Assembly (NCBI GenBank): GCA_001917535.1
Contig: MNEF01000024.1
Location: 1 to 32,719, forward strand
Length of the DNA: 32,719 nucleotides
Direction of reading: 5' to 3'
Origin: Candidatus Rokubacteria bacterium 13_1_40CM_69_27
GTDB lineage: Bacteria > Methylomirabilota > Methylomirabilia > Rokubacteriales > CSP1-6
Under the pieces are notes generated by a model. The model was not told where the DNA came from. It worked only from the letters and a program-made list of their open reading frames with translations, and made no database searches. Below, piece after piece: positions 2,118 through 32,719 of this stretch (positions are counted from its first letter, which is position 1; each line of letters opens with the position of its first letter). The position numbers and the translations under genes are program-made.

Positions 2118-4343
2118 TCAGGCGCGGGTTACGGCGTCGAGCGCCGCCTTGATCCGCTCTGGCGTGAACGGCACCGTTCTCACCCGCGTGCCGGTGGCGT
2201 CGAAGATGGCGTTGGCGATCGCCGCGGGTACCGGACAGGCGGCGGGCTCGCCCGCGCCCACCGGGCGCTGGTCCGGGCGGTTGACGAGGACGATCTCCAC
2301 CTCGTCCGGCGCCTCGGCGAAGGTGAGGATCGGGTAGGAGCGCCAGTCGAGGCTCGTCACGCGCGCGCGGTCGAACTTCACCTCTTCCTTGAGCGTCCGG
2401 CTGATCGTCTGGATCACGTTGCCCTCGATCTGGTTCCTCACGCCGTCGGGGTTGATGACGAGGCCGCAGTCGTGGGCGATCCAGGCGCGCGTCACCCGGA
2501 CGGCGCCGGTCCGGCGGTCCACCGCCACCTCGGCCACCATCGCCACGTAGGCGTTCTCGTTCTCGTACTGGACGTACGCGATGCCGCGCCCCGTGGCCAC
2601 CGGGCGGCTCGCCGCGCCCGGCTTCGGCGATGGGCGCGTCTCCCAGCGCGCCAGCAGGGCCGCCGCCTCGACGACGGCGATGGCGCGCGAGTCCGTGAGG
2701 TGGCGCAGGCGGAACTGGACGGGGTCGGCGCCCGCGGCCGCCGCCAGCTCGTCCATGAACGACTCGTTGGCGAAGGAGTTCTGGGGCGCCCCCAGCCCGC
2801 GCAGCGCCGAGGGGCGCAGCGCCGCTCGCGGCAACCAGTGAACGACCACGCGACCGTTCGGGAACACATAGCCGTACTTCGCGTTGCGATCGCCACCGCT
2901 CAGGCCGGCCTTGATCGCCCGTCCGGTGAGCTGTCCGGCCAGCGTGTTGCCCGCCTCGCTCCGGGGCCGCGTGGAGTGGGTCGGCGTCCACACCTCATAG
3001 TCCCAGGCGACCACGCGGCCCTGCGCGTCGAGACCGCCGCGGACCTGCATGACCATGCTCGGCCCCTTGGGCTCCCAGCCGTGCTCGTCGTGGCGCATCC
3101 ACTGCACTCTCACGGGGCGCCCGACCGCCTGCGACAGCAGCGCGGCATCCGCCGCGACATCGTCGGCGCCGTTGTGGCCGTAGCAGCCCGCCGCCTCCGC
3201 GAAGACGAGGCGGACGTTGTCCGGCGCCAGCCCCAGCAGCTCGGCCAGGGAGTCGCGCAGCCCGAAGACCCCCTGGCTCGCGCACCACACCGTGGCCTTG
3301 CCGTCCCGCACGTCGGCCACGGCGCAGGAGGGACCGATGGAGGCGTGCATCTGGAACGGCCACTCGTAGGTCGCGTGCAGCGACTTCGCCGCAATCGCCA
3401 GCGCCGGGCCCACGTCGCCCACGGTCAGGAGGGCGCGGTCGGTGGTGCGGGCGCCGCGCATCGTCTGGTAGAGCTCCTTCATCTCCGACAAGGCGGGACC
3501 GTCTTTCCAGGCGACCTTCAGCTCCCGGGCCGCCCGGATCGCCTGCTCCTCGCGCTCGCACACGACGCCCACGAAGTTGCCGGTGCGCACGACCTTGACG
3601 ACGCCGGGCAGCCCGCCCAGGGAGCCCTCGTCGACGCTCTCCAGCGTCGCGCCGATGGCGGCGGGCCTGACGACGCGCCCCTGCAGCATCCCGGGCAGGC
3701 GCAAGTCGTGCACGTACGTGTGCGTCCCCGTGACCTTGCCGGGGATGTCCACGCGGGGCGCCGCGGTGCCGACGACGGTGTACCCGGCGGGACTCTTGGG
3801 CTTGGCCGTCTTCGTCACCGCGCGATTGAAGCGCTGGCCGCCGATCAGCTCGGCGTAGGTCACCCGCTTCGACGGCTCCTCCCTCGCGCTCACGACGCCA
3901 TCCTTGACGACGAGCCGCTCGCCGGGCGCCCCCAGGCGCGCCGCCGCCATCTCCAGCAGCGCCTGCCGGGCCTCCGCGGCCGCCTGGCGGAGCTGCGGCC
4001 CGCCCTGATCGATCGTCTTGCTGCCGACCGTGTAGCCTTGATCGGGCGTGCGGGCGGTGTCGCCCTGCACGATCGCGATGCGCGCGACGGGCACGTCCAG
4101 CTCCTCGGCGACGATCTGGGAGAGCGCGGTCTCCACGCCGGTGCCCAGCTCGACCTTGCCGGTGAAGACCGTGACGCGGCCGTCGCCCCCGACGGCGAGC
4201 CACGAATCGATCCACGCATACTGCGCGAGCCGCTCGGGCGGCGTGGAGGTCTGCGCCCCGAGCTCGAGGGGCAGGCTGAACGTCACGATGAGCGCGCCCC
4301 CGCCCGTGAGGAACCGCCGCCGGGAGATCGTCGCCGTCGTCAC
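2118..4343 (-). CDS. Mo-hydroxylase large subunit, IorB-like, copy 1
   Basis: 741 residues, full length for the molybdopterin-binding subunit of isoquinoline-1-oxidoreductase / aldehyde-dehydrogenase-type enzymes (xanthine oxidase family). A twin-arginine signal is present (SRRRFLTGGGALIVTFSLPL), so the folded cofactor enzyme is expected to be Tat-exported, as in IorB. The aldehyde-oxidase hammerhead region is at about 210-300. A GCYGHNG segment sits at the dioxo-Mo contact region, followed by VGRPVRVQWMRHDEHGW. The C-terminal VGAGEPAACP segment carries the likely catalytic glutamate (about E699). The start is GTG at 4343, supported by GGAGG about 9 bases upstream. The gene follows the 2Fe-2S subunit by 13 bases. 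It hydroxylates an N-heterocycle or aldehyde using water; the substrate is unknown. A close paralogue is at 12176-14404. Confidence 0.9.
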   Translation of the reverse strand: MTTATISRRRFLTGGGALIVTFSLPLELGAQTSTPPERLAQYAWIDSWLAVGGDGRVTVFTGKVELGTGVETALSQIVAEELDVPVARIAIVQGDTARTPDQGYTVGSKTIDQGGPQLRQAAAEARQALLEMAAARLGAPGERLVVKDGVVSAREEPSKRVTYAELIGGQRFNRAVTKTAKPKSPAGYTVVGTAAPRVDIPGKVTGTHTYVHDLRLPGMLQGRVVRPAAIGATLESVDEGSLGGLPGVVKVVRTGNFVGVVCEREEQAIRAARELKVAWKDGPALSEMKELYQTMRGARTTDRALLTVGDVGPALAIAAKSLHATYEWPFQMHASIGPSCAVADVRDGKATVWCASQGVFGLRDSLAELLGLAPDNVRLVFAEAAGCYGHNGADDVAADAALLSQAVGRPVRVQWMRHDEHGWEPKGPSMVMQVRGGLDAQGRVVAWDYEVWTPTHSTRPRSEAGNTLAGQLTGRAIKAGLSGGDRNAKYGYVFPNGRVVVHWLPRAALRPSALRGLGAPQNSFANESFMDELAAAAGADPVQFRLRHLTDSRAIAVVEAAALLARWETRPSPKPGAASRPVATGRGIAYVQYENENAYVAMVAEVAVDRRTGAVRVTRAWIAHDCGLVINPDGVRNQIEGNVIQTISRTLKEEVKFDRARVTSLDWRSYPILTFAEAPDEVEIVLVNRPDQRPVGAGEPAACPVPAAIANAIFDATGTRVRTVPFTPERIKAALDAVTRA

Positions 4344-8417: not shown

Positions 8418-8825
8418 ATGGAACCGACGGTCGCGGCGGATATCCGTGAGAGAGTGGCCCAATGGGTCCAGGAAGGACTCAGGCTGCTCCCGCACCTCCC
8501 GGGGCTCCTGCACAGCGCCGAAGCGGCCCGGGCCGCCGAGCTGGAGCGAGAGTGCGAGAAGCTTCGCCGGGAGCTCGAGGATCTCCGGAAGGAGCAGGAG
8601 CGGCTGCGGGGCGACCGCGATGAGGTCACCCAGGCGTTCAGCCGGCTCATGGAGTCGGTTCAGCCCATCAATCAGCTCGTCCAGAAGCTCGGCGTGAGGC
8701 GCAGCCCCTTCGAGCGCGACCCGCGGGGATCGGCCACCCCGCCTGCGCCCGGCACCACGGCCCCGTCAGGCGGGACGCCGCCCGGCCCCGCGCCGACGCC
8801 GGGCCCGACACCCAAGCCGAGTTAG
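8418..8825 (+). CDS. Small coiled-coil protein with Pro/Gly-rich tail
   Basis: 135 residues from the ATG at 8418, supported by AAGGA five bases upstream. Residues 1-35 form an amphipathic N-terminal segment (VAQWVQEGLRLLPHLPGLLHS). Residues 36-75 are a heptad-rich, highly charged coiled coil (LERECEKLRRELEDLRKEQE and onward). A hydrophobic patch, FSRLMESVQPINQLVQKLGV, follows, and the last 35 residues are Pro/Gly/Thr-rich and disordered. No signal peptide. No family recognised. It is convergent with the 466-residue paralogue (ends 5 bases apart) and shares its low-complexity style, so it could be a structural partner of those proteins, but nothing proves it. Confidence 0.65.
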   Translation: MEPTVAADIRERVAQWVQEGLRLLPHLPGLLHSAEAARAAELERECEKLRRELEDLRKEQERLRGDRDEVTQAFSRLMESVQPINQLVQKLGVRRSPFERDPRGSATPPAPGTTAPSGGTPPGPAPTPGPTPKPS

Positions 8826-8830
8826 CGACC

Positions 8831-10231
8831 CTACCGCGCCTCGGGGGCCGACGGCCCCTGGCCCCGGTGCTTCACGCTCACCGTCAGCTCGTAGCGCCGC
8901 TCGTTCTCGGCCTCGGGGTTGAAGAGCGCGATCCAGACGGCGCAGTCGCGCAGGAGCGTCGCCACCGTGCTCCCCTGGCGCTCGTGCCGGCGGGCCTTCG
9001 GGGCCCCCTCGCGGCCCTGGATGAGCACGAGCCAGGCGTCGTCGGAGGGCGCGCCCTTCTCGGCGAGCCGAACGTGAATGTCACGCGGCTCCTTGAGATC
9101 GACACCGTCGAAGCGGAAGAAGCGCGCGGTCAGCGGGGCGACGTCGGCGATGAACTGATGGTCGGCGGAGCGCTGCCCCTCCTGGGCGAGTCGCTCGGCC
9201 TTCTGGGCGGAATCGCCGATCCTGGCGCTCGGACGCTGGAAGACGGTCGTCGTGGCTTCACTCTCCTCGATGCCGCCGTTGACCCAGAGGCCAGGCTTCG
9301 GGAGGCCTGTCAGCATCACCGCCTTGATGAACTCCGCGTACGCCTGTCCCTGGAGCGGCTCGGACAAATAGTTGTAGAGCCGCTGGCCCAGGGACGCGCC
9401 CTGGCGCGCGGCCAGTCGGTTGAGGGCCTCCGAGACGAAACCGCGAACGCGCTGCTCGACGAACTCCAGGAGCACAGCGTAGCCGTAAGCCAGTAGCCCG
9501 TCCTCCAGCTCCGCGCTGGTCTGGATGGGCACGCTGAAGACGTAGGGGTATCTCTTCAAGACGTCGCGCACGGCGTCGGGAAAGGCGACCTGGCGCGACC
9601 TCATGTTGCCCCAGCTCGCGCTAGCCGAGATCCACCACTGGGCTGTCTCCAGCCCCAGGTCCTCGGCGGGCTCCTGCGCCCGGGCGGTAGCCGGCGCCAC
9701 CGGCTCCTTGGCCTTGCGCCGCGCTTCCTCCTGGGCCCGCCGCTTCGCGTCCTCCTGGGCCTGGGCTTTCCGCTTGGCTTCGGCCTCGGCCCCTCGCTGC
9801 CGGGCTTCCTCCCCGGCCTTGCGCCGCGCTTCCTCCTCGGCCTTGCGCTTCGCCTCCTCCGCCGCCTTGCTCTTGGCCTCTTCTTCGGCTTGACGTTGCG
9901 CATCCTGCTGCGCCTCTTCGTCGGTGTTCCGCCTGGCCTGGCGCGCTTCTTCCTCCACAATGGCCTTGACCAGGAACGCCAGCTCCCGGATGCCGGGGAT
10001 CCCGGGAGAAGCCTGTTTGATCGACAGCGATGCCGCCGCCTCGGTGGCCTTCGCGCGGAGCGCCTCGAAGCCGGCGCGGACGGCCGCCAGCTCCTCGACC
10101 AGCCCCTCCGTCGGCAGCGCCCGCCGCTCCAGGAGCCCCTTGCCAGCGTCCGCGAGCTGCGCGCTCAGGCGCATGAAGCGCTCCATCAGCGCGTTGAGCC
10201 CGTGAGCGAGCTCGGCCTGATTTCCGCTCAC
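8831..10231 (-). CDS. Coiled-coil protein, paralogue B of unknown family
   Basis: 466 residues, GTG start four bases after the stop of the upstream paralogue. Residues 1-95 form a helical N-terminal region (MSGNQAELAHGLNALMERFM) with a counterpart in the paralogue. Residues 95-185 are an extreme Ala/Glu/Lys/Arg coiled coil of the TolA kind, dominated by EEAR/KRKAEEEA repeats. The C-terminal 250 residues form the shared domain: PYVFSVPIQTSAELEDG, LWVNGGIEESEATTTVF, ARFFRFDGVDLKEPRDIHV and YELTVSVKHRG. No signal peptide, membrane segment, ATPase or nuclease motif is seen. I cannot assign a family. The two genes form an operon. The alternation of a conserved C-terminal beta-rich domain with a long rod suggests a structural or surface-assembly role (inference). 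Confidence 0.7.
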   Translation of the reverse strand: MSGNQAELAHGLNALMERFMRLSAQLADAGKGLLERRALPTEGLVEELAAVRAGFEALRAKATEAAASLSIKQASPGIPGIRELAFLVKAIVEEEARQARRNTDEEAQQDAQRQAEEEAKSKAAEEAKRKAEEEARRKAGEEARQRGAEAEAKRKAQAQEDAKRRAQEEARRKAKEPVAPATARAQEPAEDLGLETAQWWISASASWGNMRSRQVAFPDAVRDVLKRYPYVFSVPIQTSAELEDGLLAYGYAVLLEFVEQRVRGFVSEALNRLAARQGASLGQRLYNYLSEPLQGQAYAEFIKAVMLTGLPKPGLWVNGGIEESEATTTVFQRPSARIGDSAQKAERLAQEGQRSADHQFIADVAPLTARFFRFDGVDLKEPRDIHVRLAEKGAPSDDAWLVLIQGREGAPKARRHERQGSTVATLLRDCAVWIALFNPEAENERRYELTVSVKHRGQGPSAPEAR

Positions 10232-10235
10232 GCCG

Positions 10236-12116
10236 TCATCTCGGGCGCGCGGGCGCGCCGAAGGACGCCCGGCGGGCGCCGGCGGGTTGTCCCTGCGGCC
10301 TCACGCTGACGACCAGCTCGAACTGCTTGTCGCCGGCCGGCTCCACATTGAAGACGGCGACCCAGAGGCCGCCGTAGCTCTGGCCGAGGCCTTCCAGGGA
10401 CGCGCCCTCCGCGCCCGGTCGCTTCGGCGACGCGTGCAGGAGGTGATCGGTTCGCAGCGTGAGGAGCCACGCCGCATCGGAGGGCTCTCCGTTCAGCGTC
10501 AGCTTGACGTGGACGTCCCGCGGCCCCTTCAGCTCGCCCCGCTTGACGTAGAAGAAGCGGGTCGTCATGGGGGCGACGGTGAAGGCGAACCGGTGCTCGG
10601 CGAGCCGCTCGGTCTGCTCCGTCAGGCTCCGCGTCGCCTCGGCCGTCTCGCCGATCGTGTGACCCGGATGCGTCACCACGACGGTCTCGGCGTCGCTTTC
10701 GATCACGCCGCCGTCCACCCAGACGCCCGGGTTGGGAATCGCCGCGACCATGACGTCCCGCACGAAGTTCGGATAGCTCTGGCGCAGCTTGCCCTTGGTC
10801 ACCATCAGCACGTAGAGCCTCGTCCCCAGCGCACGCGGGTCGGCCGATTCGCCGGCCTGCTCGACCGCCTGATCGAGCGCGGTGCGGATGAAGGCCGGCG
10901 ACTGGTTCTCGACGTGGTCCAGGAGCACGAAGTAACCGGCCGCCAGGCGCCCCTCGTCGTAGTCGCCGCTCTGCTGGATCGGCACGCTGAGCAGGTATGG
11001 GTGCTTGGCCAGCTCGGCGCGGAGGGCGTGGGCGGTGGCCATGCCGCTGGACTTCCAGGCCCTCCAGGCCCCGCTCGCGGCCGCCCACCAGGGCACCGCG
11101 GCCGCGCGCGGGTCGGGTGAGGGCGGGGCTGAGGCCTCCTCCTCTGCGTGCGTGGGTCGGAACGAGGCGGCCGCCGGCTCTACCATCGGCGGTGGCGCTG
11201 GTGGAGGCGGCGGTGGAGGTGCAGAGGGAGGAGGCGCCACATGCGCGGTCGGCACGGGACGCGGCTCCGCTCGGGGGCCAGCCTCCGGCGGGCTCGGTGG
11301 GGCCGGCCTGGCGACGCGCGGCTCCACGCCCTGGATGAAGAGCCGTCCCCGGGTGGCGGCGATGGCCAGCGGCCGGCCGAATATGCGGGCGACGCCCTCC
11401 TCGAGCTGGGACCAGCGCTCGTCGTCCAGATTCTCCCGGCCGATCACCAGGGTGAGAAAATCCGCGAACGGCAGCATCACCTCGTCGACCTGCTCCACGC
11501 TGCAGTCCGGGTTCTCGGCGGCGAGGCGCGAGAGCGCCAGGCGAAGCTCGCTGGTCTTCGCCTGGCACTCGAGCAGCGGCTTAAAGGCCTGGTCGTCCCG
11601 GTGGCCGATCGCCAGGACGCGGTTCAGTACGCCGATGGCGCGCTGGACGGCCGCCTCCAGCGCCGCGCTGCGCGAGCGCTGATCTTCGGCGGCGACGCTC
11701 CGGGGCTCAGCCTCCACACGCCGAGACTCTGCCGGAGCGCGCCGGGGCTCCATCTCCACGCGCCGGGACTCCGTCGGCGCGCGCTTGGCGTCCGCCGGGG
11801 CGCGCCTGGTCTCGGCGTCCGCGATCGCGCGCAGCACCGGCTCGAGATCGGTGAGCGAGATCATCGCCTCGGGCGATTGCGCGATGGTGACCCCGAACGA
11901 TCCCGCCTGCTGGATGAGCCGGGTGCGAAGATCGACGAAGGCGCCGCGCAGGGCGGTGAGCTGGCGCACCAGAGCCTCCGGGGGGGGCGCGCCCTCCCTC
12001 ATCGCCTGGCTGGTCTCGAGGAGGTTGTTTCCCAGCCGGCCGAAGTACTCGGAGAGTTCCGCCAGCTGGCCTTGCAGTTCGCGGCTGTTTTCGGTCACTG
12101 CACAGCAGAATAGCAT
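10236..12116 (-). CDS. Coiled-coil / Pro-rich protein, paralogue A of unknown family
   Basis: About 626 residues from the ATG at 12116 (GGAG just upstream). A GTG at 12098 would give 620 residues and aligns exactly with the start of paralogue B (TENSRELQGQL versus SGNQAELAHGL), so either is possible. The frame stays open farther upstream, but that part is antisense to the next gene. The protein has a helical N-terminus, an imperfect Arg-rich repeat region (RRAPAESRRVEAEP type, about 105-145), a middle helical domain and a Pro-rich linker. The C-terminal domain is homologous to paralogue B: PYLLSVPIQQSGDYDEG, GVWVDGGVIESDAETVVV, TRFFYVKRGELKGPRDVHV. No enzyme motif recognised. It ends four bases before paralogue B. 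Confidence 0.7.
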   Translation of the reverse strand: MLFCCAVTENSRELQGQLAELSEYFGRLGNNLLETSQAMREGAPPPEALVRQLTALRGAFVDLRTRLIQQAGSFGVTIAQSPEAMISLTDLEPVLRAIADAETRRAPADAKRAPTESRRVEMEPRRAPAESRRVEAEPRSVAAEDQRSRSAALEAAVQRAIGVLNRVLAIGHRDDQAFKPLLECQAKTSELRLALSRLAAENPDCSVEQVDEVMLPFADFLTLVIGRENLDDERWSQLEEGVARIFGRPLAIAATRGRLFIQGVEPRVARPAPPSPPEAGPRAEPRPVPTAHVAPPPSAPPPPPPPAPPPMVEPAAASFRPTHAEEEASAPPSPDPRAAAVPWWAAASGAWRAWKSSGMATAHALRAELAKHPYLLSVPIQQSGDYDEGRLAAGYFVLLDHVENQSPAFIRTALDQAVEQAGESADPRALGTRLYVLMVTKGKLRQSYPNFVRDVMVAAIPNPGVWVDGGVIESDAETVVVTHPGHTIGETAEATRSLTEQTERLAEHRFAFTVAPMTTRFFYVKRGELKGPRDVHVKLTLNGEPSDAAWLLTLRTDHLLHASPKRPGAEGASLEGLGQSYGGLWVAVFNVEPAGDKQFELVVSVRPQGQPAGARRASFGAPARPR

Positions 12117-12175: not shown

Positions 12176-14404
12176 TCAGGCCTGAGCGCGGATCGCCGCC
12201 TTCACCCGCTCCGGCGTGTACGGCACGGTCCGGAGGCGCACGCCGATCGCATCGAAGACGGCGTTCGAGATCGCGGACGGCACGATCGCGGCCGTCGGCT
12301 CGCCCGCGCCCCACGGTGGATCGTTGGGCCGGTTGATCAACTCGATGTCGATCTCGGGCACCTCCGGGAACGTGAGGATCGGGTACGTCACCCAATCCAC
12401 GCTCGTCACCCGCGAGCGGTTCCACTTCAGCTCTTCCTTCAGGGTCCGGCTCACCGTCTGGACGACGTTGCCCTCGATCTGCGCCCGGACGCCGTCGGGG
12501 TTGATGATCTGGCCGCAGTCGTGGGCGACGACGACGCGCTTTACCCGGATGACGCCGCTCCGGCGCTCGACCTCCACCTCGGCTACGGCCGCCACGTACG
12601 TCCGCACGTTCTCGTACTTGCAGTACGTGACCCCGCGCCCGGTGGCGACCGGCGAGCTCGCCGCCGACTTCTTCGGCGACGGGCGCGTGTCCCACTTGGC
12701 GCGCCGGACCGCCGCCTGAAGGACCTCGATGCCCCGCAAATCCTTAAGGTGGCGCAGGCGGAACTCGACCGGATCGGCGCCGGCGGCCGCCGCCAGCTCG
12801 TCCAGGAACGCCTCGTTCACATAGGTGTTCTGCAGGCGGCCCGGCGTGCGGATCCACGACGGCCGGAAGGGCGTCGTCTCCAGCCGGTGGCAGACCGCGT
12901 GCGCGTTGGGAAATGCGTAGGGCGGCGCCGAGTTCTGAAAGATGTTGCCGGGGTTGATGTTGTCCTTGTAAGGAAGCCCGCCCAGGGTGGCCGCCAGCAT
13001 GGGCACGCCCTCGGTGATCGCTCCGACCTTGGGAATCCAGAACTCGGACTGCCAGGCGATGACGTTGCCACTGGCGTCGAGCCCGCCGCGGAGCTCGGCC
13101 AGCGTCGGCGGTCCCTTGGGGTCCCAGCCGTGCTCGTCGTGGCGCATCCACTGCACCCGCACGGGCCGGCCCACCTCACGCGACAGCAGCGCCGCGTCCG
13201 CCGCCGCGTCCTCGTGGCCGTTGCGCCCGTAGCAGCCGGCGCCATCGCGGTAGATCACGTGGATGGCGCTGGGGGAGATGCCCAGCATAGTGGCCAGGTC
13301 CCGGCGCAGCCAGTGCGGCGCCTGCGAGGCCGACCACACGGTGAGCTTGCCGTCGCGGACGTCGGCGATCGCGCAGGACGGGCCGATCGAGCCGTGCGTG
13401 TGGATGGCGAACTCGTAGGTGGCCGAGACCGTCTTGGCGGCGCTGGCCAGCGCCGACTTGGCATCGCCCACGTTGACGGTGACCTCGTCCTTGGCCACCG
13501 GCGTCTGGCGGACGACCTGGTAGAGCTGGTCCATGTCGGGCAGCCCTTCCCAGGGCGACCACGTCGCCTTGAGCCCCTCGGCGGCCTTGATGGCCGCCCA
13601 CTCCGTCTCGGCGACGACAGCCAGGAAGTTGCCGATGCGCACGACCTTCACGAGCCCCTTGATCCCGCTGACCGAGCTCTCGTCCACGCTCGAGAGCTGG
13701 GCGCCCAGGGCCGGAGGCCGCACGACGCGTCCGTGGAGCATGCCGGGCACCCGGACGTCCTGCATGTACGTCCACTCGCCGGTGACCTTGGCCGGGATGT
13801 CCACGCGCGGCACCGGCTTGCCCACGATCGTGTAGCTGGCAGGGTCCTTCACCCGCGCGCTCTTGTCGACCTTCAGGTGGAACTCCTGGTCGCCGATCAG
13901 CTCGCTGTACGAGGCGCTCCGGGTGGGGTCGGCCTTGGCGCGGACGACGCCGTACTTGACCTCGAGGTCGCTCGCCGGCGCGCCGAGACGCTTGGACGCC
14001 AGCTCGACCAGCGCCTTGCGCGCGGTCGCCGCCGCCTGGCGGATCTGCACGCCGCCGACCTGGATGGTGAGACTGCCCCACGTCGGCCCCTGATCGGGCG
14101 TGAGGGCGGTGTCGCCCTCCACCAGGTTGATCCGCTCGAACGGGACGTCGAGCTCCTCGGCCGCGATCTGGCGCAGCGCCGTGCGCGTGCCGGTGCCGAG
14201 GTCCACCTTGCCCGTGTACACGTTGACGGTGCCATCCGGGACGATCGCGAGGAACGAGTCCACTTCGTCGAGGGCGACCGGCTTGCCGCCGGCCCCCGCC
14301 GTCTGACCGCGCGCGGCGGACATCGGGCCGGCCAGGCTGAATCCGACGATCAGCGCCCCACTGGTCTTGATGAAGTCTCTCCGGGTGCTCTGATGAGTCA
14401 GCAT
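12176..14404 (-). CDS. Mo-hydroxylase large subunit, IorB-like, copy 2
   Basis: 742 residues, a full-length paralogue of the copy at 2118-4343 with the same domain order. The N-terminus is a textbook twin-arginine signal (STRRDFIKTSGALIVGFSLA). The Mo-contact region reads GAGCYGRNGHEDAAADAALL, followed by VGRPVRVQWMRHDEHGWDPKGP. The C-terminal WGAGEPTAAIVP carries the likely catalytic Glu (about E702). It differs from copy 1 by an insertion of about 20 residues near GVPMLAATLGGLPYKDNINP, in the region that lines the substrate channel in relatives, so the two copies probably act on different substrates (inference). The ATG lies one base after the stop of the small subunit. Confidence 0.9.
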   Translation of the reverse strand: MLTHQSTRRDFIKTSGALIVGFSLAGPMSAARGQTAGAGGKPVALDEVDSFLAIVPDGTVNVYTGKVDLGTGTRTALRQIAAEELDVPFERINLVEGDTALTPDQGPTWGSLTIQVGGVQIRQAAATARKALVELASKRLGAPASDLEVKYGVVRAKADPTRSASYSELIGDQEFHLKVDKSARVKDPASYTIVGKPVPRVDIPAKVTGEWTYMQDVRVPGMLHGRVVRPPALGAQLSSVDESSVSGIKGLVKVVRIGNFLAVVAETEWAAIKAAEGLKATWSPWEGLPDMDQLYQVVRQTPVAKDEVTVNVGDAKSALASAAKTVSATYEFAIHTHGSIGPSCAIADVRDGKLTVWSASQAPHWLRRDLATMLGISPSAIHVIYRDGAGCYGRNGHEDAAADAALLSREVGRPVRVQWMRHDEHGWDPKGPPTLAELRGGLDASGNVIAWQSEFWIPKVGAITEGVPMLAATLGGLPYKDNINPGNIFQNSAPPYAFPNAHAVCHRLETTPFRPSWIRTPGRLQNTYVNEAFLDELAAAAGADPVEFRLRHLKDLRGIEVLQAAVRRAKWDTRPSPKKSAASSPVATGRGVTYCKYENVRTYVAAVAEVEVERRSGVIRVKRVVVAHDCGQIINPDGVRAQIEGNVVQTVSRTLKEELKWNRSRVTSVDWVTYPILTFPEVPEIDIELINRPNDPPWGAGEPTAAIVPSAISNAVFDAIGVRLRTVPYTPERVKAAIRAQA

Positions 14405-14405
14405 G

Positions 14406-14873
14406 TCAGGCCCCCTTCGCCATGAGCGCCGCCGCCCGCCTGACCGCGCGGACGATCCGCGGATGGGTCCCGCAGCGACAGAGGTTGCCGGCGAGCGTCT
14501 GCTTGATCTCGCGTTCGGATGGATTCGGCTTGCGGTCGAGGAGCGCCTTGGCGGTCATGATCATGCCGTTGATGCAGTAGCCGCACTGCACGGCCTGCTC
14601 CTCGATGAAAGCTTTCTGGAGCGGGTGCGGTTTGTGCGAGGAGCCGAGCCCTTCGAGCGTGGTGACCTTCTTGCCGACAGCCCTCGACACCGGCGTGGTG
14701 CACGACCGGATCGCGTTGCCGTCCAGGAGGACGGTGCACGCCCCGCACTGCGCAAGCCCGCAGCCGAACTTGGGCCCGTGCAATGCCAGAGTATCCCGGA
14801 GCACGTAAAGGAGCGGCGTGTCGGGGTCGACGTCGAGGGTTTGGGACTTGTCGTTGACGACCAGCGTGATCAT
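14406..14873 (-). CDS. Mo-hydroxylase 2Fe-2S small subunit, IorA-like, copy 2
   Basis: 155 residues with both [2Fe-2S] sites intact: Cys38, Cys43, Cys46, Cys58 (GCGLAQCGACTV) and Cys97, Cys100, Cys132, Cys134 (QCGYCINGM, NLCRCGTH). It is the electron-transfer partner of the 742-residue Tat-exported subunit that follows after a single base. A GGGGAGG ribosome site precedes the ATG. Compared with copy 1 the order and spacing are the same, but there is no amidohydrolase downstream, so this is a second independent IorAB-type operon. Confidence 0.92.
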   Translation of the reverse strand: MITLVVNDKSQTLDVDPDTPLLYVLRDTLALHGPKFGCGLAQCGACTVLLDGNAIRSCTTPVSRAVGKKVTTLEGLGSSHKPHPLQKAFIEEQAVQCGYCINGMIMTAKALLDRKPNPSEREIKQTLAGNLCRCGTHPRIVRAVRRAAALMAKGA

Positions 14874-14975: not shown

Positions 14976-16922
14976 TCAGGTCGCCTCGGCGACCGCCTTG
15001 ACCGCGTCGGGGTTCTCGAGCGACGAGAGGTCGCCGGGATCACGGCCGAGATACGTGGCCCGGATCACCCGTCGCATGATCTTGGCCGAGCGCGTCTTGG
15101 GCAGGTCGCGCGCGAACAGCACGCGCTCGGGCCGGAGCGCCTTGCCCATCTGCCGCGCGACGCGCTCGGTCAGCTCGGCGCGCAGGGCCTCGGAGGGTGA
15201 CGTCGCCGGCTTGAGCACGACGAAGCAGACCACGGCCTCGCCCTTGACCTCGTGGGGCACGCCGATGACGCCGGCCTCGGCCACCGCCGGGTGACCGACC
15301 AGGATCGATTCGACCTCGGCGGGCCCGAGCCGCTTGCCGGCGATCTTGAGGGTGTCGTCGGAGCGTCCCTGGAGGAACCAGAAGCCGTCCGCGTCGATCA
15401 GCGCCCAGTCGCCGTGGACCCACACTCCGGGCCAGCGCGACCAGTAGGTTTCCTCGTAGCGCTTGGGATCGCGCCAGAACCCTTGCGTCATCCCGGGCCA
15501 CGTCTTGGTGACCACCAGCTCGCCGACCTGGCCGCGCACCGGCCGGCCATTCTCGCCGAACACGTCGGCGGCCATTCCGGGGATGGGGCCGGCGAAGGAG
15601 CACGGCTTGAGCGGCGTGATCGGGAAGCACCCGAGGATGCCGCCGGAGATCTCGGTGCCGCCCGTGTAGTTGATGATCGGCACGCGACCGCGACCGACGT
15701 GCTCGAAGAGCCAGCGGTAGGGCTCGGGGTTCCAGGGCTCGCCCGTCGATCCGAGTATGCGGAGCGACGACAGATCGTGGACACGCGGGTGCTCGGGGCC
15801 GTGAGGCATCAGCGCGCGCACCGCCGTCGGCGAGAGCCCCATCACGGTGATCCGGTGACGCTCCACGAGCGCCCACAGCCGGTCGGGCTTGGGGTAGTCG
15901 GGCACGCCTTCGAAGAGCACGCCGGTCGCGCCGAGCGCCAGCGCCGCCGTGATGAGCATCGGACCCATCAGCCATCCGAGATCGGTGAGCCAGAAGAGGC
16001 GATCGCCCTCGCCGACGTCGTGGCAGTAGGCGAAGTCGTTCGCCGTCTTGAGGAGGAAGCCCGCGTGGGTGAGCACGGCGCCCTTGGGGCGGCCGGTGGT
16101 GCCCGAGGTGTAGATGATGAGGCAGGGGCGGTCGGCGTCCACCGGCACCGCGGAACAGTCGTCGGAGGCCGAGGCGACGCTCTCGTGCCACCAGCGATCA
16201 CGGCCCGCCGTCCACGGGATGTCGCGCCCGAGCCGCCGGTAGACGAGGACCCGTCGGATGCTCGGGCACGCCGCCACCGCCTCGTCGGCGGTCTCCTTCA
16301 TCCTCACCACCTGGCCGCGACGGTGGAAGCCGTCGGCGGTGATGAGGAGCTTCGCCTCGCAATCCTGGAGCCGGGAGGCGACGGCCTGGGCGCCGAATCC
16401 GGAGAAGCAGGGGGTGTAGACCGCGCCGATGCGCGCGATGGCCAGCGTGGCGATGGCCGCCTCGGGCGCCATCGGTAGGAACACGCCGACCCGGTCACCC
16501 TCGGCGATGCCGAGACGCTTGAGCGCGTTGCCGAGCCGGTTCACCTCCCGGGCCAGCTCGCGGTAGGTCAGCGTACGCGTCTGGCCGTCGTCCGCCTCCC
16601 AGACGAGCGCCGGGCGGTCAGCCCGCCCCGCGTCCAGGTGGCGGTCGAGGCAGTTGTCGGCGAGGTTGAGGAGCCCGCCGGGAAACCACGCCGGCCAGGC
16701 GGGGCCGCGCGAGTCGTCGAGGACGCGCGTGTAGGGCCGCGTCCACCGGATCCCGAGATCGTGGACGACGGCATTCCAGTACCACTCCGTGTCGTCGATG
16801 GAGCGCTTCTGGAGCTCCCCGAGCGAGCGAAGGCCGTTGGCGCGCATCAAGCGCGTGATCCGGGCGCGCTCGACAATGTCCGGGGTGGGACGCCAGACGA
16901 TCTCGCTGGTGTCGGTGGTCAT
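14976..16922 (-). CDS. AMP-forming acyl-CoA synthetase (ANL family)
   Basis: 648 residues from the ATG at 16922; GGAG lies about 17 bases upstream, and an alternative in-frame ATG ten codons farther up cannot be excluded. The N-terminus resembles the acetyl/propionyl-CoA synthetase N-domain (WYWNAVVHDLGIRW). The adenylation core has the P-loop YTSGTTGRPKGAVLTH, then NYTGGTEISGG, HGDWALID and GRSDDTLKIAGKRLGPAEVE. The C-terminal lysine motif is KTRSAKIMRR. It activates a carboxylic acid with ATP and CoA. The Trp pair that restricts acetyl-CoA synthetase to acetate is absent (NYTGG in its place), so a larger acid is likely. It lies downstream of no other gene on this strand and is divergent from the riboswitch-controlled protease. 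Confidence 0.85.
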   Translation of the reverse strand: MTTDTSEIVWRPTPDIVERARITRLMRANGLRSLGELQKRSIDDTEWYWNAVVHDLGIRWTRPYTRVLDDSRGPAWPAWFPGGLLNLADNCLDRHLDAGRADRPALVWEADDGQTRTLTYRELAREVNRLGNALKRLGIAEGDRVGVFLPMAPEAAIATLAIARIGAVYTPCFSGFGAQAVASRLQDCEAKLLITADGFHRRGQVVRMKETADEAVAACPSIRRVLVYRRLGRDIPWTAGRDRWWHESVASASDDCSAVPVDADRPCLIIYTSGTTGRPKGAVLTHAGFLLKTANDFAYCHDVGEGDRLFWLTDLGWLMGPMLITAALALGATGVLFEGVPDYPKPDRLWALVERHRITVMGLSPTAVRALMPHGPEHPRVHDLSSLRILGSTGEPWNPEPYRWLFEHVGRGRVPIINYTGGTEISGGILGCFPITPLKPCSFAGPIPGMAADVFGENGRPVRGQVGELVVTKTWPGMTQGFWRDPKRYEETYWSRWPGVWVHGDWALIDADGFWFLQGRSDDTLKIAGKRLGPAEVESILVGHPAVAEAGVIGVPHEVKGEAVVCFVVLKPATSPSEALRAELTERVARQMGKALRPERVLFARDLPKTRSAKIMRRVIRATYLGRDPGDLSSLENPDAVKAVAEAT

Positions 16923-16989
16923 GAAACGTATTGTAAAACTCCTTGCACCCATGAAGCAGGAGCGCTGCCGGGCCCCGATTCCAGGCTCT

Positions 16990-17042
16990 GCGTTCCGAAT
17001 CGCGAGGGTTGTCGCTCTGGCACGTGTCAGTGTTCGGAACGC
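16990..17042. repeat. 10-bp inverted repeat in divergent intergenic region
   Basis: GCGTTCCGAA (16990-16999) and TTCGGAACGC (17033-17042) are perfect inverted repeats separated by 33 bases, located between the synthetase start (16922) and the sigma-54-like promoter (17154). The spacing is wide for one hairpin, so paired operator half-sites are an alternative. Confidence 0.35.
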
Positions 17043-17114
17043 GACGTTCTCGACCGCGCTGCGGAATATCTCCCGGAACCGATAGCGGGCTGGCTGCTCG
17101 CTAAGCCCCCGAAT

Positions 17115-17126
17115 AGAAGCGCTTCT
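17115..17126. promoter_or_regulatory. 12-bp palindrome upstream of sigma-54-like promoter
   Basis: AGAAGCGCTTCT is a perfect 12-bp palindrome about 28 bases upstream of the -24 element at 17154. Sigma-54 promoters need an upstream activator site. This is a candidate, although somewhat closer than most such sites. Confidence 0.35.
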
Positions 17127-17152
17127 CAAAGAAGGCAGAGAAAACGACCTGT

Positions 17153-17168
17153 GGGCATGGCCCTTGCC
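17153..17168 (+). promoter_or_regulatory. Sigma-54-type (-24/-12) promoter candidate
   Basis: The sequence GGGCATGGCCCTTGCC matches the TGGCAYRN4TTGCW consensus. The invariant GG (17154-17155) and GC (17166-17167) are separated by exactly 10 bases, CATG follows the GG, and TT precedes the GC. Only the first and last positions differ. Transcription would begin near 17178, about 17 bases before the first base of the riboswitch P1 stem, which is a sensible distance. It implies RpoN and an enhancer-binding protein, neither visible here. Confidence 0.55.
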
Positions 17169-17194
17169 ATACTCCACGGGGTGTAGGGAGAAGA

Positions 17195-17286
17195 CCCCTT
17201 CCCGAAAAAGGCAAACCCGCCGCGAGACGGGGACGCAAAGCCACGGGTCAGGCAACGACCTGACAGCCGGGCTACCGAAGAAGGGG
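17195..17286 (+). promoter_or_regulatory. Cyclic-di-GMP-I (GEMM-I) riboswitch aptamer
   Basis: The hallmark blocks of the class-I c-di-GMP aptamer appear in order. They are AAGGCAAACC (17209-17218), a P1b hairpin capped by a GCGA tetraloop, GGGACGCAAAGCC (17230-17242), a second arm GTCAGG/CCTGAC (17247-17264), and GGGCTACCG at the 3' side. P1 is a perfect 7-bp helix, CCCCTTC (17195-17201) with GAAGGGG (17280-17286). By eye, the base matching Vc2 G20 is G, which favours c-di-GMP over cGAMP. It lies 41 bases before the metalloprotease ATG, so it controls that gene. Confidence 0.93.
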
Positions 17287-28081: not shown

Positions 28082-30496
28082 TCACGACCCCCCGACGCTC
28101 TGCTGGATCACCCGGCGGATCTGCTCCAGCTCATAGGGCTTGCTCACCGTGCGGACTCCCTCCCGCTCCAGGAACTCACGCGTCGCCGGGCTCAGCTGGT
28201 CACCGGTCGCGAAGATCAGGCGACGACAGAGCCCTGGCCGCCGGCGCTCCAGCTCGCGGTAGAGCCCGGGGCCGTCGAGATCCGGCATCCGAACGTCGCT
28301 CACGATCACGTCATAGGGGCGCGTCAAGATCATGTCGAGCGCGACGAAGCCGTTGGCCGCCGTCTCGACCTGATGTCCATCAGCGATCAGCAGGTCGCGC
28401 AACACCTCGGCCACGTCGGCTTCATCCTCCACCACCAGGATCGACTTTCCCTGGACCGACGCGCCGGCCTCGTGGTCCGGTGCCTCCGGCCCCGCGATCC
28501 CGGGTGTCGTCACCGGTAGCACGATCCGGAAGACGGCGCCTCGGCCAGGCTCAGTTTCCAGATCTAGCCAGCCCCCGTGGCTCTCGACGATGCCGCGACA
28601 GAGCGAGAGCCCCAGGCCGGTCCCCTGTCCTGGTGGCTTCGTCGTGAAGAACGGCTCGAAGATCCGCTCCTGGATCTCGGGGGGAATGCCTGGACCCGTA
28701 TCCCCCACCTCCAGGTGGACGCGGTCCTGCGCCGCCTCGAGCCGGGTCGTCAGACTGATTCGCCGCGACCCCTCCACCTGCCGTAACGCGTGATGGGCGT
28801 TGGTGATGAGATTGACGACAACCTGGTGGAGCTGATGCTCATCAGCCCACAGTACGGGGAGATCCGGCGCCAGCTCCAGCGCAACGTCGACGTTGTCCAC
28901 CCTGAGTGGGTAGGCAACGAGCTCCACGACCGCTCGGACAATCCCGTTCAGATCGACGTGTTGGCGTTCGGGTTGGCGCTGGCGGGCCAGGGCCAGGAAA
29001 TTCTTCACGATGCGCGCGCAGCGCTCCGCCGCGCCCGCGATCTTCTCGGCTCGTTCGGCCAGCGGTCCCTGGGCAACCGTATGGCACAGGAGGGTCGTGT
29101 GCCCGATCAGGACCGATAGCGGGTTGTTCAGCTCGTGGGCCACGCCGGCCAGAAGCTGTCCCATGGCCGCGATCTTCTCGGTCTGAAGGAGGCGGGCCTG
29201 GGTTTGTTGAAGCTCTTCCAGCCGATCTTTGAGCTGGTGATAGAGCCGCGCGTTCTCCACGGCGATAGCCGCGTGGTCGGCCAGGATCGTCAGGAGCCGC
29301 TCCTCCATCCCCCCGAAGTCGCGTGGCCGCTCGGTCGCGACCGCGAGCACGCCCACCAACCGACCACCGGTCACCAGCGAGATCGCCAAGTTCCCGCGGA
29401 CCCGCTCCAGCCACGACCCGGATGGCCTCCCGGCCGTTCCCACCAAGGCGGAGAAATCCACGTGCCGCCGCGCCACTGCCCGATCCAGGAACCGATGCTC
29501 GACACGAAGACGCAACCCGCACGCCGCCGATTCCGGGACACCGGCCCACCCGACCGGGTGCAGCGCGAGTCCATCCGCGAGCCAGAGGAGGGCGATCTCG
29601 GCCTTGAGAAGCTCGGTGGCGGCCCGGGCCACGAGCTGGACCACCTCGCCGAGCTCTTGAAGGCTCGCGATGGACCGGGCCAGACCGTTGAGGACCAGGA
29701 GCGCGTCCTTCTCGTCGGCGAGACGCCGATGGGCCAGCACGTTCTCCAGGGTCGAGGGAAGCTTCGTGAAATAGCCCTCCCCCTTGATGATGTAGTCGGC
29801 CGCGCCGAGCTTGAAGGCCTCGACCGCCGTCGCCTCGTCCCCCTGCCCCGTCACCATCACCACGGGAATCCGGATCCGTTCGGTCCGGAGGGTCTTGAGC
29901 ACCTCGATGCCGGTGATGTCCGGCATCCGGTAATCGAGGAGCAAGAGGTCGTAGGGGAAGGACCGGAGACGTTGCAAGACCCCGCGCCCGTCCTGCACCA
30001 CGTCGAGATAGAGATGCTCCCCGTACTCGTGGAAGGCGCGTCGCGTGAGCTCCACGTCGCCCGGATCGTGCTCGGCGTACAGCACGCGGATGGTTCTCTG
30101 CCTCACCTCGCTGGCCGACTGAAACCACCGGAAGGCGCCCTCCAGGATCGGCGGCAGCGTCTCCAGATACCCCGGACGCTTCACCACATAGTCGGCGGCG
30201 CCGGCCTTGAGCAGACGGACCGCGGAGTCGGCGTCCCCCGAGCCGGTGACCAGGACGACCGGCACGTTGAATTCGCGCTCCTTAATCGTCTCCAGGACGT
30301 CCAGCCCCGTGCCGTCGGTGAGGCGAAAATCCGAGAGCACCACGTCCACATCGCCGACGGTCAGCCGGTCGAGCGCGCCGGCCACGGTGTCCACCTCGGT
30401 CAGCTTGAGGTGAGGGGCGTGGCGCTCCAGGTAACGCCGCGTCAGCTCCCGGTCGCTGGGGTCGTCTTCCACGTAGAGGACGCGGATCGCCTCCAC
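28082..30496 (-). CDS. Hybrid histidine kinase, REC-REC-GAF-HisKA-HATPase-REC
   Basis: 804 residues, GTG start just after the stop of the upstream response regulator. Domains in order: REC1 (phospho-Asp56 in VVLSDFR), REC2 (Asp188 in LLLLDYRMP), GAF (about 270-415), a coiled linker, HisKA with His454 in AGVAHELNNPL, HATPase with N-box NLITNAHHA, G1 DTGPGIP and G2 GTGLGLSL, and a C-terminal REC3 (Asp734 in IVSDVRMP). It is soluble: no membrane segment. Two N-terminal receivers let it take phosphate from other kinases and pass the signal to its own kinase and final receiver. No DNA-binding output is encoded here. It is third in a likely operon with a phytochrome-like kinase and an Rcp1-like regulator. 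Confidence 0.9.
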   Translation of the reverse strand: MEAIRVLYVEDDPSDRELTRRYLERHAPHLKLTEVDTVAGALDRLTVGDVDVVLSDFRLTDGTGLDVLETIKEREFNVPVVLVTGSGDADSAVRLLKAGAADYVVKRPGYLETLPPILEGAFRWFQSASEVRQRTIRVLYAEHDPGDVELTRRAFHEYGEHLYLDVVQDGRGVLQRLRSFPYDLLLLDYRMPDITGIEVLKTLRTERIRIPVVMVTGQGDEATAVEAFKLGAADYIIKGEGYFTKLPSTLENVLAHRRLADEKDALLVLNGLARSIASLQELGEVVQLVARAATELLKAEIALLWLADGLALHPVGWAGVPESAACGLRLRVEHRFLDRAVARRHVDFSALVGTAGRPSGSWLERVRGNLAISLVTGGRLVGVLAVATERPRDFGGMEERLLTILADHAAIAVENARLYHQLKDRLEELQQTQARLLQTEKIAAMGQLLAGVAHELNNPLSVLIGHTTLLCHTVAQGPLAERAEKIAGAAERCARIVKNFLALARQRQPERQHVDLNGIVRAVVELVAYPLRVDNVDVALELAPDLPVLWADEHQLHQVVVNLITNAHHALRQVEGSRRISLTTRLEAAQDRVHLEVGDTGPGIPPEIQERIFEPFFTTKPPGQGTGLGLSLCRGIVESHGGWLDLETEPGRGAVFRIVLPVTTPGIAGPEAPDHEAGASVQGKSILVVEDEADVAEVLRDLLIADGHQVETAANGFVALDMILTRPYDVIVSDVRMPDLDGPGLYRELERRRPGLCRRLIFATGDQLSPATREFLEREGVRTVSKPYELEQIRRVIQQSVGGS

Positions 30497-30499
30497 GAT

Positions 30500-30949
30500 T
30501 TATCCCCGACGCTCGGGCGCGGGATAGGGGACGTTGGTCAGGATCCAATAGAGGTCGATGCGTTCGACGACTTCCAGGAACTTCTCGAACTCCACCGGCT
30601 TGACGATGTAGCTGGCCGCGCCGAGCTCGTAGCTCGTCTTGATGTCCCGATCCTCCGCGGACGTCGTGAGCACCACCACGGGAATGTTGCGGTACACCGG
30701 GTGGCTCTTGATCTCACGCAGCACGTCGAGGCCGTCGACCCTCGGGAGGCGGAGGTCGAGGAGAATCAGCCCGGGGAGTGGGGCCCCCTGGAGGAACTGG
30801 CCGCGCCGGTGCATGTAGTCGAGCGCTTCTTCTCCGTCGCGAGCCACGGTGATGGCGTTGGCGAGCTTCCGGCGCTTGAACGCCCGGAGCGTCAGCTCGA
30901 CGTCGGCGGGGTTGTCCTCCACGAGCAGGATCGGTAGAGGTTCGTTCAT
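30500..30949 (-). CDS. Single-domain response regulator, Rcp1-like
   Basis: 149 residues, one receiver domain with no output. The acidic pair is in LLVEDNPADVELT, the phospho-acceptor Asp65 in LILLDLRLPRVDG, the switch Thr-Ser in VVLTTSAED and the Lys in ASYIVKPVEF. The ending, VVERIDLYWILTNVPYP, is typical of the Rcp1 group paired with phytochrome-like kinases. Its ATG overlaps the upstream kinase stop in an ATGA, and it ends three bases before the hybrid kinase start. It therefore probably shuttles phosphate from the first kinase to the hybrid kinase. Confidence 0.92.
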   Translation of the reverse strand: MNEPLPILLVEDNPADVELTLRAFKRRKLANAITVARDGEEALDYMHRRGQFLQGAPLPGLILLDLRLPRVDGLDVLREIKSHPVYRNIPVVVLTTSAEDRDIKTSYELGAASYIVKPVEFEKFLEVVERIDLYWILTNVPYPAPERRG

Positions 30950-32719
30950 CCGCCCTCTCCTGCGCTCCCGGGGAGCGTCAAATAAAACGTGCTTCCCTCC
31001 CCGGGCTCGGAGACCGCCCAGGCCCGGCCGCCGTGTCGCTCGGCGACCTTCCGGACGATCGCCAGCCCGACCCCGGTTCCGGGAAAGTCTTCCTGCCGGT
31101 GCAAGCGCTCGAAGATGCCGAAGATCCGGTCGTGATACTTCATGTCGAAGCCGATCCCGGTGTCCTCCACCCGGAGGACGACGTCACCGCCATTTTGCTG
31201 CGAACCGATGGTGATCGTGCCCCCGTCCCCGCGGCTGAATTTGACGGCGTTTCCGATGAGGTTCGCCAGCGCTTCTCGAAGCCCTTCCCGCTCGGCGTCG
31301 ATGGCCTCCACCGCCAGGTCGAGGCGGACGGTGAGGCCCCGCGCCCGGATCTCCTCGGCCACCTCGTCGCACAGGCTTTCCACGAGGGGCCGGAGCGGCG
31401 TGTGTTCCTGTCTCATCTCGCGCCGCTCGAGACGTGAGTAGCGCAGGAGATCGTCGATCAGCTGCCCCAGGCGGCGGGCGCCGCCCTGGATCAACCCGAG
31501 GTAGCGGCTGCCCGTTTCGTCGAGCCGATCAGTGTAGTCCTCCTGGAGCGCTCGGGCAAAGCCCTCCATGCCGCGCAAGGGTGCCTTCAGGTCGTGAGAC
31601 ACGGTATAGGTGAAGGCCTCCAGTTCTTTGTTGGCCGCCTCCAGCTGCTGGGTGCGTTCCGCCACCCGACGCTCGAGCCGTTCGTTGAGCGCGACTACTT
31701 CCCTGGTCTTCTGTTCGATCTCGCGTTCGGCCCGTTTGCGCTCGGTCAGATCACGGACGAAGCCGCTGAAGGTCACCGTGTCCCCCGATCGGATGACGCA
31801 GATCGCCAGCTCGACAGGAAACTCGCCCCCGTCGCGGCGGAGCGCCATGACCTCGATCCGCTTGTTCAGGACCGGGCCCTCTCCGGTGGTCAGAAAGCGC
31901 TTCAAGCCGCCCGCGTGAGCCCCGCGATCCCGCTCGGGAATGATCGTGGCCGCCAGGCTCCGCCCCAGCGCTTCCTCTCGGGACCACCCGAACATCTTCT
32001 CGGCCTGGGTGTTCCAGCCCGTGATGACTCCCCGAACGTCCATCGTGATGACGCCCTCGAGCGAGGTCTCGATGATGAGGCGGACGCGTTCTTCACTTTC
32101 GCGGAGCGCGTGCGCGGACACCTCGGCTTCGGCCACCCGGCGCTGGAGCTGCTCGGCCATGGCGTTGAACGATAGGGCCAGGGCCGCGACCTCGTCCTGG
32201 CTCTCCGGAGTCACCCGAACCGAGAAATCCCCGGCTCCCAACCTTTTGGTCGCCCCGGCGAATCGGATTAGGGGGCCGGTGAGCGTGCGGGCCAGGCCCC
32301 AGCCGAGAGCGACCGCGACCGCCGTGAAGCCCAGGGTAAGCCAGAGCAACCGCCGACCGAGCTGACCGGCCGCGGCATAGGCGACCGACACGGGCTGCGC
32401 GGCGACGACGCCCCATCGCAGCCGGGTGATCGGGACATGGGCCGCCAGGAAACTCTTGCCGCCTCCCGGCTCCCGGAACTCTAGCGTGCCCCGCTTTCCG
32501 GCCAACGCGGCCTGGACTGGCGGCTGCATCCTCATGTCTGTGCCGGGAGCGACGTCCACTCCTCCGGAGTGCGCGATCAGGAGCCCCTGGCTATCGACCA
32601 CGTAGACGACGCTGCCCTGCTCCAGTCCGATCATCGATACGAACCGCCCGAGCGTCTTCAGTGAAAGCGCTCCGCCGACGACTCCTCGGATTCGGTCGGT
32701 GTCGTCCATCGCCGGCATC
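30946..32719 (-). CDS. Membrane sensor histidine kinase (Cache-HAMP-PAS-HisKA-HATPase), N-terminus off right edge
   Basis: At least 590 residues are visible; the true N-terminus lies beyond the window and the first Met in view is not necessarily the start. An extracytoplasmic Cache-like sensing region (VVYVVDSQGLLIAHSGG, LAAHVPITRLRWGVVAAQP) is followed by a membrane helix (about 122-143), HAMP, PAS (ESEERVRLIIETSLEGVITM), a coiled coil, and HisKA with His375 in YTVSHDLKAPLRGMEGFA. HATPase_c follows with NLIGNAVKFS, VEDTGIGFD and GTGVGLAIV. The SHDLKAPLR H-box belongs to the phytochrome-like kinase group that partners Rcp1 regulators, as found directly downstream. Confidence 0.9.
   Translation of the reverse strand, partial: MPAMDDTDRIRGVVGGALSLKTLGRFVSMIGLEQGSVVYVVDSQGLLIAHSGGVDVAPGTDMRMQPPVQAALAGKRGTLEFREPGGGKSFLAAHVPITRLRWGVVAAQPVSVAYAAAGQLGRRLLWLTLGFTAVAVALGWGLARTLTGPLIRFAGATKRLGAGDFSVRVTPESQDEVAALALSFNAMAEQLQRRVAEAEVSAHALRESEERVRLIIETSLEGVITMDVRGVITGWNTQAEKMFGWSREEALGRSLAATIIPERDRGAHAGGLKRFLTTGEGPVLNKRIEVMALRRDGGEFPVELAICVIRSGDTVTFSGFVRDLTERKRAEREIEQKTREVVALNERLERRVAERTQQLEAANKELEAFTYTVSHDLKAPLRGMEGFARALQEDYTDRLDETGSRYLGLIQGGARRLGQLIDDLLRYSRLERREMRQEHTPLRPLVESLCDEVAEEIRARGLTVRLDLAVEAIDAEREGLREALANLIGNAVKFSRGDGGTITIGSQQNGGDVVLRVEDTGIGFDMKYHDRIFGIFERLHRQEDFPGTGVGLAIVRKVAERHGGRAWAVSEPGEGSTFYLTLPGSAGEGG

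Follow-up and report, generated by a model that had tools for sequence, protein, structure and literature searches.

Two adjacent genes of no recognisable family, with a third, small gene converging on them, raise the question of what such a set might do: is it a protein assembly rather than a group of enzymes, as the initial annotation suggested, or does its ancestry point elsewhere? The genes lie in a stretch of 32,719 nucleotides from Candidatus Rokubacteria bacterium 13_1_40CM_69_27 (contig MNEF01000024.1), hereafter the window. Gene B (10236-12116, minus strand, 626 aa) is 4 bp upstream of gene A (8831-10231, minus strand, 466 aa), and gene C (8418-8825, plus strand, 135 aa), which encodes a short helix, a coiled coil, an R/K-SPF-x-R motif and a Pro/Gly tail, indeed converges on A, ending 5 bp from its end. 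B starts with an ATG at 12116, just after a purine-rich GGAGAGG-like site, and an AAGGA site precedes C. As the GTG start of A falls 4 bp past the stop of B, A and B are probably translated together. A scan for promoters and terminators at the locus found none, and neither A, B nor C has a transmembrane-like segment (19-residue hydropathy maximum 1.2). Elsewhere, the window carries genes for two molybdopterin-binding oxidoreductase large subunits (2118-4343 and 12176-14404), the second accompanied by a 2Fe-2S subunit gene (14406-14873), and a series of genes for sensor kinases, receivers and hybrid kinases (28082-32718), one of them with three receiver domains.

Selection on the three genes was gauged against L028, from the sole other genome of the genus, whose orthologues are 88% (A), 92% (B) and 81% (C) identical. 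The dN/dS ratio is about 0.33 for A (CTD, the C-terminal domain, 0.23), about 0.29 for B (Mid, a domain described below, 0.15; CTD 0.19) and about 0.38 for C. It is lowest in the conserved domains, and dN in the linkers is some 2-6 times that in the domains. From these ratios, A, B and C are real genes under purifying selection.

That A and B are tandem paralogues, with alike helical N-termini and CTDs, is borne out by BLASTP, which aligns the CTDs at 38% identity over 265 aa (E=1e-54) and the N-terminal regions at 33% over 169 aa (E=8e-10). The CTD is about 270 residues long (8849-9676 in A, by profile match; 10281-11120 in B, by profile match and model; both minus strand), and the motifs previously quoted for it are found in A and B respectively: SVPIQ in both, LWVNGG/GVWVDGG, ARFFRF/TRFFYV and LKEPRDIHV/LKGPRDVHV. 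The helical region of A, which we call Nh, spans 9959-10216 (minus strand) and is joined to the CTD by a TolA-like charged rod. B, which also begins with Nh, has Arg/Glu repeats, then Mid, a conserved domain of 108 residues (11340-11663, minus strand) that is family-wide and absent from A, and then a Pro-rich stretch. The two linkers were described as unrelated, and for the rod as against the Arg repeats and Pro-rich stretch this stands, but the presence of Mid between those two stretches means that B is not linker alone there. Within a small clade (window A, L028 and L029), the charged rod has replaced Mid in A.

Are these modules known from elsewhere? In keeping with the initial annotation, the CTD matches no family in Pfam, NCBIfam, PDB sequences, PHROG or PADLOC, and neither CTD nor Mid scored above chance in these collections. 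C and the rod of A gave generic coiled-coil matches only in the family libraries and PDB sequences. Judged by sequence, we regard Nh, Mid and CTD as a new family, one without a description in the libraries searched. A 37-row CTD profile run against 95 genomes of the phylum detected the CTD in 32, all belonging to the window's own family (f1, Ca. Rokuibacteriota; 57 genomes) and usually carrying two copies; the 38 genomes from other families lack it. Mid is likewise found in 32 of the 95 genomes, in f1 only. Presence is all-or-none by genus, with 12 genera fully positive and 12 fully negative. The hosts of the CTD all belong to a single family of soil and groundwater bacteria that are uncultured. 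The pair is conserved beyond this genome, being in tandem in genera g1 and g13, and two CTD genes occur in most positive genomes. The whole-genome profile search covered this phylum; other phyla were covered through a two-pattern scan, which returned one locus, L027, and a 640-aa CTD protein is identical in L027 and L058 (from G032, a genome that belongs to the same family as the window). Viral contigs and plasmids hold no relatives, and we reject a virus or plasmid origin on this ground.

Iterated profiles over the fetched loci divide the family into three types. Type I (Nh-Mid-Pro-CTD) comprises 29 loci, among them the three with a rod in place of Mid; to type II (cyclase-Mid-Pro-CTD) belong 21 distinct loci, and at one of them, L029, Nh is present too; type III (Nh-Mid-Pro/Gly-CTD) adjoins pilT-pilU. 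A 56-row CTD tree sets each type apart from the rest by a single branch (support 77/81, 60/88 and 99/93). Window A groups in type I. Window B falls, together with L028 B, inside the type II set with support of 100/100, and its nearest neighbour is L029 B, in which the cyclase is kept. A Mid tree places B in agreement with the CTD tree. The genomic context of B points the same way: an AMP-binding acyl-CoA synthetase gene lies upstream in the window (14976-17255, minus strand), as it does in G013 and upstream of most type II genes. Taken together, the two trees and the shared synteny suggest that B is most simply a former cyclase-CTD protein that has lost its cyclase.

Pfam gives no class III adenylate cyclase match (PF00211) in window A or B. 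The domain is clear in L029 and L027 (E=1e-18 to 4e-19), and D12, D56, K52, D108, N115 and R119 are invariant in 21/21 type II sequences; we take these to be the two metal-binding Asp, the adenine-pair Lys and Asp, and the transition-state Asn and Arg of class III cyclases. A weak GGDEF score of the type II cyclases overlaps the cyclase match. The proposal of a protein assembly rather than enzymes is not supported in that form, since in nearly all relatives the orthologues of B carry an intact adenylate cyclase domain. The B branch is therefore enzymatic by ancestry, and reading the set as a signalling scaffold is to be preferred over a purely structural assembly. In the relatives, cAMP would be the signal.

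The surroundings of type II genes allow a different interpretation, namely that the proteins regulate neighbouring acyl-CoA or aromatic acid metabolism, linked to cAMP now or formerly, and have no role in pili. At nearly every type II locus, genes for an AMP-binding CoA ligase and a second CoA ligase precede the type II gene on the same strand, often with an RskA_C gene downstream; the AMP-binding ligase is kept upstream of B in both the window and G013, and the MoCoBD oxidoreductase family recurs nearby. However, types I and III and C lie outside that context, beside pilus motor genes in eight genera, and genus g6 has one adjoining ligase gene only, downstream. We consider a purely metabolic regulator quite unlikely.

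For gene A the most constant neighbour is C. The two had been placed together on the strength of the window, and their association proves general: C ends between -4 and +31 bp from the type I gene in 28/28 testable loci (L042, the 29th, is truncated at a contig end and stands outside this count), convergently in 27 and on the same strand, 18 bp apart, in one (L030). In C, a Trp and a Pro close to the N-terminus are invariant, as are a Gly and the SPF motif that precede a variable tail. Full-strength matches (E below 1e-30) are confined to CTD-positive genomes, with weaker paralogues more widely spread, and g6, the sole positive genus to lack a type I gene (it has type II only), lacks the full C as well. 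Position and distribution alike show that A-type genes and C are fixed partners.

Relatives of C bearing the SPF motif adjoin PilZ-domain genes in g15 and g17 (G015, G017), with prepilins in G017, and, as read by eye, a PilZ-like gene in g3 (G003). In g19 (G085), a C relative whose SPF is not clear comes after a PilB. Histidine-kinase-like genes, also read by eye, are the neighbours in g3 and g19 (G003, G084, G087), an arrangement that fits signalling in general, not pili specifically, and so counts against a role in pili. In CTD-less genomes we observed short coiled-coil SPF proteins with PilZ-domain, prepilin or histidine-kinase-like partners (L126 168-617, L134 8233-8874, L143 5265-5720 and L136-L139). 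A 'DRRxGERR'-like motif also marks many small proteins, some of them fused to a C-like coiled coil (L130 5598-5861, 6779-7444 and 9699-9977; L129 3641-4429; L146 10267-10542).

The case for pili comes from gene neighbourhood, in two arrangements. First, at 10 type I loci a PilB-type ATPase gene (T2SSE plus MshEN) lies 24-80 bp upstream on the same strand, with an eleventh such locus (L125) cut by a contig end; these genes span g4, g5, g14 and g22. This is a second PilB, as G005 has a standard pilB-pilT-pilC on another contig. Second, in g2, g12, g16 and g18 the convergent neighbours of type III genes are pilT-pilU and a receiver-like gene. In g18, moreover, a short Nh-Mid gene comes directly after the same type of PilB, 64% identical to the type I-linked PilB. 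Linkage to pilus motor genes is thus seen in 8/12 positive genera and is absent in g9, g13, g6 and the window's own genus; neither the window locus nor the type I loci of g9 have a pilus gene as neighbour.

Several observations accompany these loci. Genes for a second PilB lie outside the pilB-pilT-pilC operon at L044 9951-11813 and G000:C53:66598-68289, and the closest relative of the second PilB in the window's genome stands alone on another contig (L146). Standalone Nh-Mid proteins without a CTD occur in type III genomes (L121 5868-6854, L122 6962-7948, L123 307-2961, L119 5563-6318, L120 3810-4457 and L124 6257-6919), three directly following a PilB-type ATPase gene. In g16, very long open frames start beside the type I gene: one of 2879 aa (L036 11263-19899), cut by the locus end, and one of 4384 aa (L042 1388-14542).

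How much weight can such adjacency bear? By our own estimate, assuming about 4500 genes and a three-gene margin, a motor gene would adjoin a given locus by chance in about 1% of cases, and two separate motor arrangements are unlikely to have arisen by chance. Because of shared descent, the pilB- and pilT-linked loci represent few independent events, and the two links may reflect two evolutionary events only. Co-occurrence with type IV pili was discarded as a test: almost every genome of the phylum has PilM and PilT, with about 2-11 PilT-family matches per genome, and where pili are nearly universal co-occurrence is uninformative. In G012 and G016, standalone Nh-Mid genes lie close to cyclases of the GAF or CHASE2 kind, and these were likewise set aside, since those genomes hold 24-32 cyclase domains.

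From this neighbourhood, family members probably help to control type IV pili. For A, B and C themselves the best reading, to which we assign a probability of roughly 0.45, is that of a lineage-specific cytoplasmic signalling scaffold, acting most likely on type IV pilus motor ATPases. The Nh helices or the rod would serve in dimerisation or in setting distance, the CTD would dock to a common target (the motors or the motor platform), and the coiled coil and SPF motif of C would form a bridge; in the relatives, the cyclase would make cAMP at the place of docking. In the window's genus, a B without its cyclase and an A with a rod for Mid would have become a two-gene, non-catalytic scaffold operon with C. 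The window locus itself, which lacks both a cyclase and an adjoining pilus gene, is a derived form. A more specific version, which we put forward tentatively, is a novel second-messenger scaffold for pilus motors, in which an A-type protein and C have a second PilB of their own, the other paralogue makes cAMP, and the window's genus represents the state after cyclase loss.

Some of the same features would suit a general structural scaffold, such as a cytoskeletal or polar organiser, for which the cyclase is one of several cargoes. This develops the idea of the initial annotation: coiled coils, the charged rod and Pro-rich linkers change fast between conserved ends, Nh, Mid and CTD carry no catalytic signature, and C relatives occur in varied contexts. 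Set against this, recurrent adjacency to PilB and PilT-PilU indicates a specific client and copy number is almost fixed at two, which makes a general organiser unlikely.

Structure prediction for both CTDs, from alignments of three sequences (those of the window and L027), gave models of about seven helices followed by eight or nine strands, with pLDDT 51 and pTM 0.53 for A and pLDDT 61 and pTM 0.65 for B, whose C-terminal sheet is mostly at 70-84. Foldseek placed GOLD domains (5gu5, 7rrm; TM to target 0.60-0.66, E 8e-5 to 4e-4) and PliG (4dzg also listed) among the top matches for both, with other beta-sandwiches close behind. At low to moderate model confidence this supports a predicted beta-sandwich; the fold yields no indication of function. 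The invariant polar residues of the CTD (Thr148, Arg174, Thr188, Arg190 and Asn258, A2 numbering), together with several invariant Trp, could be read as signs of an enzyme or of a domain binding a ligand such as cAMP or a lipid, making A and B effectors that read a messenger, and some GOLD domains do bind lipids or proteins. Yet the likeness does not go beyond the fold (TM to target about 0.6, about 10% identity), many unrelated beta-sandwiches reach similar scores, and the invariant residues include no His, Asp or Glu; such effectors are, to our minds, very unlikely.

The family can be set beside several known systems. The resemblance of the CTDs to GOLD (p24/TMED, SEC14-like) and PliG beta-sandwiches concerns the second half of the domain only, at about 10-15% identity, and none of 37 CTDs has a Pfam match to GOLD; the similarity is one of fold only. 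With TolA (TIGR02794), A shares a charged helical rod, but membership was rejected: the match is to the coiled coil only and scores 44.1 bits against a cut-off of 59.45, there is no N-terminal membrane helix (19-residue hydropathy maximum 1.1), and the CTD is unrelated. Class III adenylate cyclases share their domain with the type II orthologues of B, the nearest solved structure being the mycobacterial Ma1120 (E=4e-36), and the cyclase domain of Pseudomonas CyaB also matches (E=4e-18), but in no family searched does Mid plus CTD follow a cyclase, and window B has none. A natural series of forms, with the cyclase kept, with the cyclase lost, with Mid lost and with Nh-Mid standing alone, suggests parts worth testing. 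For control of motors there is precedent, in that PilZ and FimX control PilB and cAMP from CyaB feeds pilus control in Pseudomonas (PMC11656802). The likeness to PilZ/FimX of Proteobacteria is one of working only (cytoplasmic location, the PilB extension motor, a second-messenger link; PMC11656802), as A, B and C have no PilZ, EAL or GGDEF domain by Pfam and the messenger in the relatives would be cAMP. If the pilus link holds, the family would add a further tie between motor and second messenger, beside PilZ/FimX and CyaB-Vfr.
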